The position numbers and the translations under genes were made by a program. From Chloroflexota bacterium (lineage in GTDB: Bacteria > Chloroflexota > UBA11872 > VXOZ01), in assembly GCA_022824225.1 (NCBI GenBank), contig JAJEAH010000063.1, forward strand, positions 62,001 through 126,000: 64,000 nucleotides of DNA. Reading direction: 5' to 3'. The notes beneath the pieces are model-generated. The model was not told the origin of the DNA. It saw nothing but the letters and a program-made list of their open reading frames with translations, and searched no databases. Each line of letters starts with the position of its first letter. The first letter of the stretch is position 1. Shown here one piece after another: positions 1-31,270 of the stretch.

Positions 1-380
1 CACAGCCACGAGGAAGAAGCAAAACGTACCGGCGAATTCAGCCACGAGAGCCTTGATCGATTGTTCAGTCAAGCTCTAATCACGCCTCCTGGGGCGGCGC
101 CCCACCACTACTTACCCTTGTATGGACTTTTGCCACTTGCTATTGTGCTAGGTAGTCGGCGAATGTCAAATGAGCAGCGCGGCTTGACGCAACTAGATGT
201 GTCTTGCCAAGCCCGCGCCGACCTGCGGTTAGTGCGCAGGCAAGCGCCGAAGCTGTCGTTTGCCTGTGTCACCAGTTTGATGGGCGGCTTGCAGCGCGGC
301 GCGCTCATGCGTGCCCGCTTTTCCTCGATGCCCCACCGCCGGTACAAAGCGGCCCGAAAGCCAACAGAAAGCGATCTGAC
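1..380. other. Left-edge region without a supported gene
   Basis: An open frame runs from the window edge to about 402 on the plus strand, but its product has no recognisable motif and it overlaps the start of the DUF3604 gene. A short GC-rich hairpin (GGGGCG/GCGCCCC type) lies near 90-105. It could hold the tail of a gene whose body is outside the window. No tRNA fold or promoter was convincing. Confidence 0.4.
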
Positions 381-21721: not shown

Positions 21722-22576
21722 CTATTCCTCAATGTCTAGACTTATGTCGAGCGCTGGGGCCGAATGCGTGAGCATGCCTACCGAGATCAGGTCTACGCCG
21801 GTTTGGGCCGCATCTTTGACGGACTCAAGGCTGATTCCGCCAGACGCCTCGGTGAACGCCTTGCCCCGCGCCATGTCCACTGCCGCCGCCATCATTTCCG
21901 CAGACATATTGTCAAGCAGAATACCATCCGCGCCGGCCGCCAGCGCTTCCGCGACCTGTGCCAGAGTCGCGGCCTCCACCTCGATCTTCAGAAGGTGATG
22001 TACGGCAGCCCTCGCTCGTTGCACGGCTGCCGCGATGGAGCCGCAGGCGGCAATGTGGTTGTCCTTTATGAGCACCCCGTCATAGAGACCGATGCGGTGG
22101 TTATGTCCGCCGCCGATGCGCACCGCGTACTTCTCCAGGTGTCGCAGACCGGGCGTCGTCTTGCGGGTATCGACGATCTGAGCGCCGGCGCCGGCCGCGG
22201 CAGCGACGAATTCGCGCGTGAGGGACGCCACGCCGGAGAGATGGCGGAGGAAATTGAGCGCCACCCGCTCGCCTGTCAGTATCGCCCGCAAGGGTCCCTC
22301 CACGCGCAGGATCGTGGCGCCCGGTTGCAGGTGCGCTCCGTCGCCAACCAGCGTCGTCGTGCCCACGGCATCGTCTAAGAGCGTGAACACCCGTGCTGCG
22401 ACGTCAACGCCGGCCAATACACCCGCCTCTTTGGTGTGAGCGGTGGCTACACCTACTTGATCGGGAGGAATGAGCGCGGCTGTGGTGACGTCGCCTGCGC
22501 CGACGTCTTCGGCCAGGGCGCGGCGAATAGTCTCGTCAACCAAACTGGGCAATAGCGCCTGCTCTGGAGCATTCAT
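21722..22576 (-). CDS. nadC: Nicotinate-nucleotide diphosphorylase (carboxylating)
   Basis: A 284-residue enzyme that makes nicotinate mononucleotide from quinolinate and PRPP in de novo NAD synthesis. Signatures: EDVGAGDVTT near the N-terminus, DTRKTTPGLR (PRPP/quinolinate binding), GGGHNHRIGL, LIKDNH and LLDNM. Length is normal. It follows nadB by 36 bases on the same strand. nadA is not in the window, so the first part of the pathway must be completed elsewhere. Confidence 0.96.
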   Translation of the reverse strand: MNAPEQALLPSLVDETIRRALAEDVGAGDVTTAALIPPDQVGVATAHTKEAGVLAGVDVAARVFTLLDDAVGTTTLVGDGAHLQPGATILRVEGPLRAILTGERVALNFLRHLSGVASLTREFVAAAAGAGAQIVDTRKTTPGLRHLEKYAVRIGGGHNHRIGLYDGVLIKDNHIAACGSIAAAVQRARAAVHHLLKIEVEAATLAQVAEALAAGADGILLDNMSAEMMAAAVDMARGKAFTEASGGISLESVKDAAQTGVDLISVGMLTHSAPALDISLDIEE

Positions 22577-22612: not shown

Positions 22613-24196
22613 CTAGGCGCTGCCGGAACGGCGTGTCTCCGGCGCGATTACGATGCGGCGGCGCCAGCCCTCATTGGCGTCAGGATAGTCCTGGCGAAAG
22701 TGCGCGCCGCGACTCTCCCGGCGCAAGCGCGCCGCCGTGGTGAGCAGCAGACCCAAGACCAGTGATGACCGGTATTCCTGCTGGCGGCGCGTCGCCCCGA
22801 TCGGCGCGCGCGCCAGCCACTCGCGGAGCTGCGCTTCCGCCGCCGCCAGGCCCGTCTCGTGGCGCACAATGCCCGTATTGTGCCACATGAGCTGTTGCAG
22901 CGCAGGCATGGCGCCGCCGGCCCGCTTGCGGTGCGTGGCCGGGGGCGGAATGTCGATGCGCACGTGCCGGTGGGGCGCAAGATCGGCCTCTCGCTGCGGG
23001 GGCAGCGCATAGTCGGGCACGTCGATGTCCTGGGAATCCAGCACGATGCGCCGGGCAAAGACAACCGCTTCCAGCAGCGAGTTGCTGGCCAGGCGGTTTG
23101 CCCCGTGGGCGCCGGTGCATGCCACTTCGCCGCACGCATACAACCCGGGCACGGTCGTGCGGCCCTGCAGGTCCGTCAGCACACCGCCTGTCATGTAATG
23201 GGCGGCCGGAGCCACGGGAATCAATTCCTTAGTTATGTCTATGCCATAGTGTTGGCAGCGCGCAAAGATGGTAGGAAAGTGCGTACGAGTCTCCGCCGCG
23301 TCCAGATGGCGCATATCCAGGTACACACAGTCAGTCTGTGCGGGTTCCATCTCGCGCACGGCCGCCCGCGCCACCACGTCGCGGGGCGCCAACTCCGCCA
23401 AGTCGTGATAGCGCGACATGTACCGCTCGCCGCTCTCGTTACGCAAGTGGGCCCCGGCGCCGCGCACGGCCTCTGAGATCAAGAACGACGCGGCGCCGGT
23501 CAGGCGCAGGGCGGTGGGATGGAACTGGTAGAATTCCATGTCCGCGATACCTGCGCCGGCGCCGAACGCCAGCGCCACGCCGTCGCCGGTCGCAATGGCA
23601 GGATTTGTGGTGTAGGCAAAGAGCCGGCCCGCGCCGCCGGAGCACAGAATGACTGTGCGAGCGCCAAATTCGCGAAACTGCCCGGCGCGTTCGTCCAGCG
23701 CCTCCACGCCCACGCAGCGGCCGCCCTGCACCAGCAGTTTGGTAGCGGTATGGTTTTCGCGTATTGTCACCGGGCTGCGCCGCGTGTAGCGGGAAAGCGC
23801 GCCTTCGATCTCTGCGCCCGTGGCGTCGCCGCGGGCGTGGAGCACGCGCGGCACGGAATGGGCGCCTTCATTCGCCAGGGTAATCTCCCCGTGCAACGTG
23901 TCGAAGTTCACGCCCAAGGCCATGAGTTCGCGGACACAGGCGCGGCCCTCGGTCACCATCGCCATCACGGCGTTGGCGTCGCACAGCCCTGCTCCCGCCA
24001 CCATCGTATCCTGCCAATGCAGGGCGGGACTGTCATCCGCGGCCACCGCGGCGGCAATGCCGCCCTGGGCGTACTTCGTGTTGGATTGGGAGAGTCGCCC
24101 CTTGGTCAGAATGAGCACAGAACCATATTGGCGCGCGTAGTGTGCTGCGTAGAGGCCGGCGATCCCGCTGCCGATGACGATGTAATCGTAGGTAAT
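22613..24196 (-). CDS. nadB: L-aspartate oxidase, apparent ATT start
   Basis: A 527-residue flavoprotein that oxidises aspartate to iminoaspartate, the first step of NAD synthesis. The FAD motif GSGIAGLYAAH lies at about residues 9-19. Further signatures are the KYAQGGIAA and EGAHSVPRVLHARGD regions, SEAVRGAGAHL, and CTGAHGANRLASNSL. The first ATG/GTG-like codon in frame (GTG 24118) would cut off the FAD motif. Reading back, no ATG, GTG or TTG occurs before the motif; the only well-placed codon is ATT at 24196, six bases after GGAGGG at 24208-24203, an ideal ribosome-binding site. I therefore start at ATT, a rare initiator. A base error for ATG is the alternative. Confidence 0.9.
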   Translation of the reverse strand: MTYDYIVIGSGIAGLYAAHYARQYGSVLILTKGRLSQSNTKYAQGGIAAAVAADDSPALHWQDTMVAGAGLCDANAVMAMVTEGRACVRELMALGVNFDTLHGEITLANEGAHSVPRVLHARGDATGAEIEGALSRYTRRSPVTIRENHTATKLLVQGGRCVGVEALDERAGQFREFGARTVILCSGGAGRLFAYTTNPAIATGDGVALAFGAGAGIADMEFYQFHPTALRLTGAASFLISEAVRGAGAHLRNESGERYMSRYHDLAELAPRDVVARAAVREMEPAQTDCVYLDMRHLDAAETRTHFPTIFARCQHYGIDITKELIPVAPAAHYMTGGVLTDLQGRTTVPGLYACGEVACTGAHGANRLASNSLLEAVVFARRIVLDSQDIDVPDYALPPQREADLAPHRHVRIDIPPPATHRKRAGGAMPALQQLMWHNTGIVRHETGLAAAEAQLREWLARAPIGATRRQQEYRSSLVLGLLLTTAARLRRESRGAHFRQDYPDANEGWRRRIVIAPETRRSGSA

Positions 24197-24243
24197 GGCG
24201 ATCCCTCCCGGCGGAATTCGTCGACGGGAAACAAGTGTACTTA

Positions 24244-24272
24244 AAGATACTCGACCGCCGTGCCGTGCTCAA
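24244..24272 (-). promoter_or_regulatory. Promoter of the nadB-nadC operon
   Basis: On the minus strand TTGAGC (24272-24267), 17-base spacer, TATCTT (24249-24244). The transcript would start near 24237, about 40 bases before the ATT start of nadB, supporting that start. Confidence 0.6.
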
Positions 24273-24510
24273 CCGAGACGAGACCGGGCCCATCCCGCCG
24301 GGCCGCTTTGCCAGACGTGCACCATGTGTCTGCCGCCGGAAGCATTCATGGGGCACGGCCCCTAGGACACGGCGCCCTTGGCTGTGCCTCGCTCACCCAT
24401 CAGCCGTAGTGGGCTCTGCATCGGAGTACTCTCCGGGAAACGGTCTCTTGATACTCGCTGGTGCCTGCCGGCGGCCCGCCGCTGCGTAGGCTCTGCCGCC
24501 CAAGCCGCAT
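24273..24510. other. Central part of divergent nadB/dtxR intergenic region
   Basis: The whole gap between nadB and the DtxR gene is about 410 bases. Outside the two opposed promoters I see no gene, RNA or clear palindromic metal-regulator box. Confidence 0.35.
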
Positions 24511-24538
24511 TTACACGGCTTGGCGCGCGCCGTATACT
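24511..24538 (+). promoter_or_regulatory. Promoter of the DtxR-type regulator gene
   Basis: TTACAC (24511-24516), 16-base spacer, TATACT (24533-24538). Transcript start near 24545, about 60 bases before the ATG. Confidence 0.5.
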
Positions 24539-28105: not shown

Positions 28106-29035
28106 ATGCAGACTCGTCACATCCCAGTGCTCTTGCCCCACGTGCTCGAAGCACTGCGGGCTGACACTGGCGGCAGGTTCATCGATTGCACCGTAAACGG
28201 CGGCGGGCACGCCGAAGGCATTCTCGCCCAGAGTTCGCCCGGAGGCCGGTTGCTGGGGCTTGACCTCGACCCCTTTGCGCTGGAGCGCTGCGCCGAGCGC
28301 CTGCGCCGGTTTGGCGACCGCGTCCTGTTGGCCCACCAGAACTTCGCCCGGCTGCTTGCCGCCGCGGAGAGCGCCGGCTTTCGCGCGGTCAACGGCATCA
28401 TTTTCGATCTTGGCATGTCATCTCTGCAAATCGGACAGCCGCAGCGAGGCTTTTCCTGGCAGCAGGAGGGGCCTCTTGACATGCGCATGGACCCAACCCA
28501 AGCGCTCACCGCCAAGGCCATCGTGAATACGTGGCGACAAGAGGAAATCGCGGACGTGCTCTGGGAATATGGTGAAGAGCGTCATGCCCGGCGCATCGCG
28601 CGGCGCATCGTTGCCGCCCGGCGCACGCGTCCGCTCACCACGGTGAGCGACGTAGCCGCCATCGCGCAGGGGGCCTATGGCGGGGGCAAGCGCCGCATCC
28701 ATCCGGCCACCCGCACGTTTCAAGCGCTGCGCATTGCCGTGAACGGGGAGTTAGACAATTTGCGGAGCGCCTTGGCGCACGCGCGCGACCTCCTGGCCAC
28801 CGGCGGGCGGCTGGTAATTATCGCATTCCATAGTCTGGAAGACCGCATCGTCAAGCGCTTCTTCCAGCGCGCCGCCGGGCGCTGCATCTGTCCGGGCGGC
28901 ATTCCCCAGTGCGTCTGCAATCCCCAGGTCACGTTGCGCGTCCTGACGCGCAAGCCGATCCGTCCCGATTCTCAAGAGTGCGCGCGCAACCCCCGCAGCC
29001 GCAGCGCGTGCTTGCGCGTGGCCGAACGCGTCTAG
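28106..29035 (+). CDS. rsmH: 16S rRNA (cytosine1402-N4)-methyltransferase
   Basis: A 309-residue SAM-dependent methyltransferase that modifies C1402 in the decoding centre. Signatures: HIPVLLPHVLEAL at the start, DCTVNGGGHAEGIL (SAM binding), GFSWQQEGPLDMRMD, TFQALRIAVNGEL and IIAFHSLEDRIVK. The C-terminal CICPGGIPQCVC cysteine cluster is as in the family. ATG 28106 gives the canonical N-terminus, with only a weak ribosome-binding site. Second gene of the division cluster. Confidence 0.96.
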   Translation: MQTRHIPVLLPHVLEALRADTGGRFIDCTVNGGGHAEGILAQSSPGGRLLGLDLDPFALERCAERLRRFGDRVLLAHQNFARLLAAAESAGFRAVNGIIFDLGMSSLQIGQPQRGFSWQQEGPLDMRMDPTQALTAKAIVNTWRQEEIADVLWEYGEERHARRIARRIVAARRTRPLTTVSDVAAIAQGAYGGGKRRIHPATRTFQALRIAVNGELDNLRSALAHARDLLATGGRLVIIAFHSLEDRIVKRFFQRAAGRCICPGGIPQCVCNPQVTLRVLTRKPIRPDSQECARNPRSRSACLRVAERV

Positions 29036-29052
29036 CAAAGCAGGAGCGCCCC

Positions 29053-29526
29053 ATGGCCCGACAAGAAACAGCCCTGCCACGAGCCGTACCCCGCGCGGAT
29101 AGCCCGGCGCGCAAGCCATGGTACTACGAACTGAGCCCGCTGGTAGCGGTGGACATGGGCATTCTGGTGCTGTTCCTGGTGGCGATGTTGTACCTCATGC
29201 CCACCGGCCAGGTGGCGGACGCGGGCTTTCGCATCCAGGTCTTGGAGCGTTCCATCGAGCGAGTAGAGCGCGAGAACCAAATGCTGCGCACGCAAATCGC
29301 CCAGGCCAGCGATCTCCGCGCAATCGAAACGGTTGCGCGCAGGGATCTCGGCATGGCGCCGGCAGAGCAGGTGCACTTTGCGCAAATGCCGCCCAGCGCC
29401 CGTCAACTGCAAGCGCCGGGCGACGGCAGCGCCGCAGAGGCCGAACTGCCCTTCAGCAGCCGCTGGGACATCGTTCGCGAGCAATTCGACCGGCTGTTCG
29501 GGGAAGGAGGGGCCGGTGCCTCCTGA
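29053..29526 (+). CDS. ftsL: FtsL/DivIC-like septum protein
   Basis: A 157-residue single-span membrane protein. A basic cytoplasmic N-terminus (1-32), one transmembrane helix (about 35-52) and a heptad coiled coil (about 58-88) rich in Glu/Arg are followed by a polar tail. This is the layout of FtsL and DivIC, which bridge FtsQ and the FtsI-FtsW synthase. The sequence is poorly conserved, so the call rests on layout and on its place between rsmH and ftsI. CAGGAG at 29041-29046 precedes ATG 29053. The last 11 bases overlap ftsI. Confidence 0.8.
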   Translation: MARQETALPRAVPRADSPARKPWYYELSPLVAVDMGILVLFLVAMLYLMPTGQVADAGFRIQVLERSIERVERENQMLRTQIAQASDLRAIETVARRDLGMAPAEQVHFAQMPPSARQLQAPGDGSAAEAELPFSSRWDIVREQFDRLFGEGGAGAS

Positions 29527-31270
29527 GTCCCCAAGCGCAGTGCGCGTCCGCGTCTTGCAGGTCTTTGCGCTGCTCGCTGCCCTGGCCATCGCGGGTGAGC
29601 TGGTCTGGCTTCACGTGGTGGAGAGCGACACGTTTTCCGCGCTCGCTCAGAAGCAACATCGGAACGACACGCAGATTCTGCCCCAGCGCGGCAGCATCCT
29701 CGACGCGAATCGTACGCTCTTGGCAACAGCCGAGTACCTTGACGACGTGGAAGCCGCGCCCAATGTGCTGCGGGGCGGCAATCTGGCCCAGACTATGGCA
29801 AGCAGGCTGTCTCAACTCCTGGACAAGCCCGAGGACCAACTCTTGGCTCTACTCGACCAACCGGGGAAACCCTACGTGCTGCTGGCGAGGGGCGTTGCCC
29901 CGGACGTAAGCGCGCGTATACAGGAGATCAAGCAAGATGGGCAAGCGCCCGGCATCTCGCTGCGGGTCACGCCCTATCGCACCTACCCCTTCGGCACGCT
30001 GGCCGCCCACGTCATTGGCTTCCATAGCCAGAGCGGCAGCGGTCAATACGGTATCGAAGGCTATTACGAAGACCTGCTGCAAGGCGCTCCCGGGCGGCGG
30101 CTGAGTTCCAGCGCGCCCTTTGGCGGAGAAGCGGGCGAGGCGACGTGGGTGCTCCAGAACGCCGAACCGGGCGCCGACCTGGTGCTCACTCTGGACGGCG
30201 GGGTGCAACACATCGTAGAACGTGAACTCGAGGCGGCTCTGGAGGAGTACGGCGCGTCCAGCGGCACGATCATCGTCATGGACCCCAAGACCGGCGCCAT
30301 CCTGGCCATGGCCAGTCTCCCAACGTATGACGCCAACCATTACCAGGAGTTTCACAAGCCCAGCGAAGACGCCTATGCCAATCCCGCCATTAGCATGCAA
30401 TACGAACCGGGCTCGACATTCAAACTCATCACCATGGCCGGCGCGTTGGATTCGGGCGTTGTAACGCCGTCTTCCACGTACTATGACGGCGGCAGTATCG
30501 AGTACGGCGGTGTGGAGATCAAGAACTGGGATGAATCGGGCCACGGCGAAAGCGATATGACCGACTTGCTCGCCTTTTCGAGTAACGTGGGCGCGGTGCA
30601 CGTGGGCAACCGTTTGGGCAAGGACCTGTTCTATGAATACGTCCACGCCTTTGGTTTCGGCGCGCCTACCCACGTAGACCTGTGGGGCGAAGTGCGCGGC
30701 GACGTCTTGACCCCGCAGTCGCCGAATTGGTATCCCTCAAGTCTCGCTACTAACGCCTATGGACAGGGCATTGCCGTTACACCGCTCCAGCTTACGACCG
30801 CAGTTGCCGCCATCATCAATGACGGTGTGCTCATGCGGCCCTATGTAGTGCAAGAAATCCGCACGGAAGACGGTGTGGAGCGCGTCGAACCCACGCCGGT
30901 GCGCCGCGTCATTCGCACCGAGACCGCCCGCACGTTGCTCGCCATGCTCGTGGAAGCGAGCGGCCGTTCGGAGAGCAAGCTCCATCGGGTAGAAGGCTAC
31001 GCGGTGGCGGGCAAGACGGGCACGTCGTCTATCCCGCTGCCAACCGGCGGCTACGACGAGCGCTTTACCATCGCGTCGTATATTGGCTTTGGGCCCGTGG
31101 AAGATCCGCGTTTCATCGTTCTCGTCAAGATCGACCGGCCGACCGTCGAGCCATGGGGTTCGCTGGTAGCCGCGCCGGTCTTTCGCGACGTGGCTTCCGA
31201 ACTATTCCGTTACTATCACATTCCGTATATGGCATCCCGGCACGAGACCGCAAGCGAAACGGCAGGTTAG
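29516..31270 (+). CDS. ftsI: Septal penicillin-binding transpeptidase (FtsI/PBP2b type)
   Basis: A 584-residue class B penicillin-binding protein. A transmembrane helix near 12-32 is followed by the dimer/pedestal domain and the transpeptidase domain. Active-site motifs are Ser300-Thr-Phe-Lys303 in GSTFK, Ser355-Ser-Asn357 and Lys500-Thr-Gly. It cross-links peptidoglycan at the septum together with FtsW. No PASTA repeats are present. GTG 29516 is chosen because GGAGG lies six bases upstream and the frame overlaps ftsL by 11 bases. ftsW starts four bases after its stop. Confidence 0.94.
   Translation: MPPESPSAVRVRVLQVFALLAALAIAGELVWLHVVESDTFSALAQKQHRNDTQILPQRGSILDANRTLLATAEYLDDVEAAPNVLRGGNLAQTMASRLSQLLDKPEDQLLALLDQPGKPYVLLARGVAPDVSARIQEIKQDGQAPGISLRVTPYRTYPFGTLAAHVIGFHSQSGSGQYGIEGYYEDLLQGAPGRRLSSSAPFGGEAGEATWVLQNAEPGADLVLTLDGGVQHIVERELEAALEEYGASSGTIIVMDPKTGAILAMASLPTYDANHYQEFHKPSEDAYANPAISMQYEPGSTFKLITMAGALDSGVVTPSSTYYDGGSIEYGGVEIKNWDESGHGESDMTDLLAFSSNVGAVHVGNRLGKDLFYEYVHAFGFGAPTHVDLWGEVRGDVLTPQSPNWYPSSLATNAYGQGIAVTPLQLTTAVAAIINDGVLMRPYVVQEIRTEDGVERVEPTPVRRVIRTETARTLLAMLVEASGRSESKLHRVEGYAVAGKTGTSSIPLPTGGYDERFTIASYIGFGPVEDPRFIVLVKIDRPTVEPWGSLVAAPVFRDVASELFRYYHIPYMASRHETASETAG

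Follow-up and report, generated by a model that had tools for sequence, protein, structure and literature searches.

Comparative evidence for an AUU, AUC or AUA start codon in nadB of a Chloroflexota genus, with predicted weak translation of L-aspartate oxidase

The gene for L-aspartate oxidase, with which NAD synthesis begins (nadB), in the 64,000-nucleotide stretch of DNA from an uncultured Chloroflexota bacterium analyzed here (the window), like its counterparts in the same genus, is probably translated from an AUU, AUC or AUA codon (together, AUH) with an offsetting Shine-Dalgarno (SD) sequence, an arrangement that, judged by sequence comparison, would limit NadB synthesis. An AUH codon, an SD sequence and a promoter were found in the comparison, with no usable canonical start (ATG, GTG or TTG) and no coding constraint upstream. 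The features concerned are listed in Table 1.

Table 1. Location of nadB, its putative expression signals and related features (window positions unless a contig is named)
Feature	Position	Strand	Details
nadB, L-aspartate oxidase	22613..24196	minus	527 codons from ATT plus stop; TIGR00551; N-terminus conserved in the genus
Proposed nadB start codon, ATT	24194..24196	minus	AUH codon in 5/5 genus genomes
Shine-Dalgarno GGAGGG	24203..24208	minus	6 nt 5' of nadB ATT
Predicted nadB promoter, TTGAGC-N17-TATCTT	24244..24272	minus	TTGAGC 24272-24267; TATCTT 24249-24244; spacer 17; aligned and kept in 5/5 genus genomes
FAD-binding motif GSGIAG of NadB	24155..24172	minus	From sequence and open reading frame list; PF00890 match from residue 4
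nadC, next operon gene	21722..22576	minus	ATG start (22576); TIGR00078, 333 bits
DUF6962 gene	G000 contig C24, ~42689 onward (L148:2689)	plus	Apparent ATC start in 5/5 genus genomes
Initiator tRNA	G000 contig C24:1704-1778 (outside window)		C1:U72, A29:U41

NadB was identified by a profile search (TIGR00551 equivalog, 524.8 bits against a cut-off of 452.75). Its open frame on the minus strand is preceded by TGA at 24271-24269, and none of the 32 codons between this stop and GSGIAG is ATG, GTG or TTG, as an earlier sequence-only reading of the window had stated. That reading had also placed the ATT at 24196 six bases after GGAGGG, with which the coordinates (24208-24203) agree, and about 40 bases after the promoter, a distance that holds when counted from a plausible transcription start (~40 nt) and is 47 nt when counted from the end of TATCTT. 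The promoter did not appear in the output of a simple promoter scan, because it matches the consensus at only 8 of 12 positions; its conservation in all five genus genomes compared is what supports it. The promoter core GGTCAAGTATCTT (at most one mismatch) was present at nadB in these five genomes and once elsewhere in the 1.91 Mb searched; as it was absent from six nadA loci, a shared nad regulon motif was rejected. nadB comes first after its own promoter, and the upstream regulator gene is divergent, so re-initiation of translation from an upstream gene is unlikely. A promoter-like TTTACA-N17-TATACT lies at 24510-24538 on the plus strand, in position for this divergent DtxR/MntR-type gene. 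An Rfam search returned a single subthreshold match, which was taken as chance.

Pairing energies of the SD region were calculated with an assumed anti-SD sequence. The energy 5' of the ATT of nadB in the window was -11.2 kcal/mol, and a value of -10 was reached by 12% of 561 canonical starts in the genus and by 1.3% of 2,000 random sites, with medians of -6.8 and -3.3, respectively.

The start region was compared in the genome that carries the window (G000) and five further members of the genus (G001 to G005); since the contig of G005 ends before the nadB start, the comparison covers five genomes, our own included. The start codons were ATT in our genome, ATC in G003 and G004, ATA in G002 and ATT followed by ATC in G001, each with an SD-like stretch 5' of the AUH codon. 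The NadB proteins of the four relatives are 78 to 79% identical to that encoded in the window, with conservation beginning at the AUH codon, and the ATT in the window is one codon nearer the FAD motif than the AUH codon of the relatives. SD energies at the five starts were -11.2, -6.9, -6.9, -6.2 and -7.4 kcal/mol, and thus four of five were at or above the canonical median in strength and that of G002 (-6.2) was weak; the SD sequences of the relatives (-6.2 to -7.4) are average for the genus. Our genome is a draft assembly of 87 contigs, so that a sequencing or assembly error that turned ATG into ATT might be considered; such an error is extremely improbable, because four separately assembled relatives also lack ATG there (ATC, ATC, ATA and ATT). 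The comparison with relatives that the sequence-only reading had proposed thus yielded no genus member with ATG at this site, and its proposal of ATT as the start of nadB is well supported by the comparison, with ATT, ATC or ATA in five of five genus members and ATT in five genes of Dehalococcoidia (see below).

Translation of NadB could in principle begin at a canonical codon upstream or downstream of the AUH codon, and such codons do occur: before GSG, a TTG at 14 codons (G003 and G004), a GTG at 22 (G002) and an ATG at 29 (G001), and in our own gene the downstream GTG 24118, its first canonical in-frame codon. We regard this as very unlikely. The nadB of the window has no canonical codon upstream at all, and a protein begun at GTG 24118 would be devoid of the FAD motif; this is the truncated NadB that gene finders limited to ATG, GTG and TTG would predict. 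In the relatives, the upstream codons lie in differing places, and each either is within or adjoins the promoter or lacks an SD sequence: G001 has an in-frame ATG and an in-frame TTG that, like the TTG of G002, fall within or before the promoter; the in-frame GTG of G002 follows the -10 box by 3 nt; and the in-frame TTG of G003 and G004, five codons upstream of ATC, has no SD sequence in front. The frame upstream of the AUH codon is, moreover, not conserved. Distances from the -10 box to the start were 47, 43, 43, 42 and 43 nt in the five genes, and these single-base differences mean that the upstream frame is not kept and that the conserved protein cannot begin there.

For a wider comparison, 80 nadB loci were collected, of which 79 were readable and 4 lacked a canonical codon 5 to 25 codons before the motif (L037, from the genus, L043, L063 and L058); L058 was discarded, as the wrong frame had been read. 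A start-region pattern was matched by 104 of 393 genomes in the class of G047, where the pattern demands A, G or T followed by T at the codon, leaving genes that start elsewhere uncounted. The homologous column, from which the ATT of the window is offset by one codon, contained ATG, GTG or TTG in 95 of the 104 (counted by eye), ATT in 4 (G142, G157, G279 and G315), ATA followed by ATG in 2 (G111 and G236), GTT in 1 (G415) and GTC in 2 (G117 and G164). G142, in which TTG directly precedes ATT, was left out of the count of ATT starts. No canonical alternative was found upstream in nadB of G157, G315, L043 and L063, and the one upstream TTG of G279, at seven codons, lies before its SD sequence. 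ATT preceded by an SD sequence therefore occupies the homologous codon in five Dehalococcoidia nadB genes (G157, G279, G315, L043 and L063). In three nadB genes of this class (L119, G117 and G164), the homologous start position is occupied by GTT or GTC.

In a tree built from 62 NadB proteins, the genus formed one clade and the other AUH rows fell inside one clade of 17 rows. The AUH label required at least three changes of state, in a count that omits L012, L059 and L119 (start unclear); L015, L061 and L120, for which there was no start reading, are absent from the tree. Two gains of AUH with later losses would fit the tree as well.

Ribosomes initiate inefficiently at known AUU and AUA starts, against which IF3 discriminates. 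Initiator tRNA would still insert fMet at the AUH codon of nadB, where IF3-dependent discrimination would make initiation weak and the SD sequence would keep it workable, so that little NadB would be made and the amount should track the levels of IF3 and initiator tRNA. NadB commits aspartate to NAD synthesis and can generate H2O2 as well as an unstable imine; both the commitment of aspartate and the formation of these products might be reasons for limiting it. We infer that holding enzyme production low is the likeliest purpose of the AUH start. Within the genus the codon drifts among AUU, AUC and AUA and is never AUG, and AUU recurs in some Dehalococcoidia, which suggests that selection keeps this core metabolic enzyme weakly translated. 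No report of an AUU start in nadB was found in the openly licensed literature searched.

In Escherichia coli, infC starts with AUU and is autoregulated through IF3, the protein that it encodes, and pcnB reportedly also has an AUU start, as Binns and Masters are said to have described in 2002. As in these two genes, the AUU of nadB would limit translation. The sequence-only reading had taken ATT initiation to mark, as a rule, low-level or autoregulated genes, and the second of these alternatives found no support: unlike infC, which is controlled by the initiation factor that it encodes, nadB encodes an oxidase and not a translation factor, and no unusual RNA fold was detected among the four nadB leaders folded (z, -0.19 to 0.33). 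The first alternative stands, in that low NadB output is likely by analogy with Staphylococcus aureus, in which reporters for the AUU and AUA starts of cvfC1, ccpN and citZ gave ~10% of AUG output in poor medium and such starts go with extended SD sequences (PMC13009471). The same paper describes conserved noncanonical starts with an extended SD sequence for ccpN (AUA), cvfC1 (AUU) and infC (AUA) of S. aureus and Bacillus subtilis (PMC13009471). nadB resembles these genes in having an SD-preceded AUU or AUA that is kept among related species and in the low output to be expected. It differs in that the S. aureus and B. subtilis starts were demonstrated by ribosome profiling and reporters, whereas that of nadB is proposed here from its sequence, and also in that nadB encodes a biosynthetic enzyme of uncultured Chloroflexota and the third base of its start codon varies.

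How often AUH starts occur was surveyed in 281 conserved gene families from sequence stretches of this genus. Of these families, 259 (135/145 plus 124/136) share a canonical start that lies at, or close to, their conserved N-terminus. An automatic rule demanding AUH plus an SD sequence selected 6 of the 281, compared with 3 to 5 for control codon classes; the rule by itself therefore shows no excess, and the case for nadB rests on the aligned details. Manual reading left 3 of the 281 families, namely, nadB, infC and the DUF6962 gene. Three matches were dropped by eye: one in a zinc-finger family (a C-terminal frame), one in a three-genome family (a shared canonical start was present) and one in a dnaN-like gene (the next codon is GTG). 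A first start survey had flagged 43 families, which were set aside as antisense open reading frame noise. The start of infC was ATA after AAGGAG in all four genus genomes with the gene (L032 to L035), which indicates that AUH starts are in use there, and AUH starts of infC were seen in other Chloroflexota too. The DUF6962 gene, encoding a membrane protein, has an apparent ATC start in five of five genomes and an ATG six codons later.

The initiation apparatus of the clade carries changes of its own. The sole initiator-type tRNA found in the genus has C1:U72 and, in place of the first G:C pair among the three that mark the anticodon stem of initiator tRNA (PMC10486304), A29:U41. This tRNA was found in five of six genus genomes (L214 to L218), with no match in G005; T41 was present in seven of nine genomes of the sister family f2, and initiator-type matches of families f3, f4 and f5 have C41. 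At a position where solved IF3 proteins read FKGR or FRGR, IF3 reads FLRR (Arg replaced by Leu) in the four genus genomes read (L032 to L035) and FLGR in all eight f2 genomes read (L323 to L330). We take this position to be R131 of the mycoplasma variants. Ayyub et al. are said to have described, in 2018, mycoplasma initiator-tRNA variants together with changes at IF3 R131. No infC match was found in the assemblies of G000 and G005, and as four relatives have the gene, these are probably assembly gaps. Covariation of tRNA and IF3 was imperfect: family f5 (G016 and G020) lost the Arg of IF3, yet G016 keeps C41. The TKR tail of uS9 was present in each of the five families compared within the class and is thus uninformative.

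Given A29:U41 or T41 in most of these genomes, the altered IF3 and the ATC start of the DUF6962 gene in five of five genomes, rare starts might be a by-product of relaxed initiation and no control device of nadB. This is unlikely. Dehalococcoidia with an AUU nadB had an ordinary FRGR IF3 in three of three cases read (G157, G279 and the genome of L043) and an ordinary CCC (C41) initiator tRNA in three of five (G279, G315 and the genome of L043; the other two gave no match), which shows that an AUH nadB and an altered apparatus are separable. The tRNA and IF3 changes extend to family f2, yet nadB of its member G026 starts with GTG, and in the genus only the three gene families named, of the 281 surveyed, have AUH starts by manual reading. 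Limited translation of nadB through its start codon is the preferred explanation. A broader scenario, that this Chloroflexota clade independently remodeled initiation and that the genus keeps an AUH set (infC, nadB and the DUF6962 gene) tying NAD synthesis to the supply of IF3 and initiator tRNA, is doubtful but conceivable. The genus resembles mycoplasmas in the change of the first G:C pair of the anticodon stem to A:U, the replacement of the matching Arg of IF3 and the presence of rare starts. It differs from them in being large-genome Chloroflexota with Leu as the IF3 residue, AUH starts that are still rare and a class-wide TKR tail of uS9. This lead might reveal a second origin of the mycoplasma pattern of altered initiator tRNA and IF3, in large-genome bacteria.

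Unusual start regions were also noted in two other genes. No canonical start lies near the conserved N-terminus of lysS (G000 contig C24, ~28838-30386, minus strand) in four of four genomes; the gene overlaps the end of the preceding gene, and its start candidates are GTA, ATA, TTA or ACG. An aquaporin-like gene at the edge of the window (~1-75, minus strand) has TTG at an aligned start where three of three relatives have CTG.
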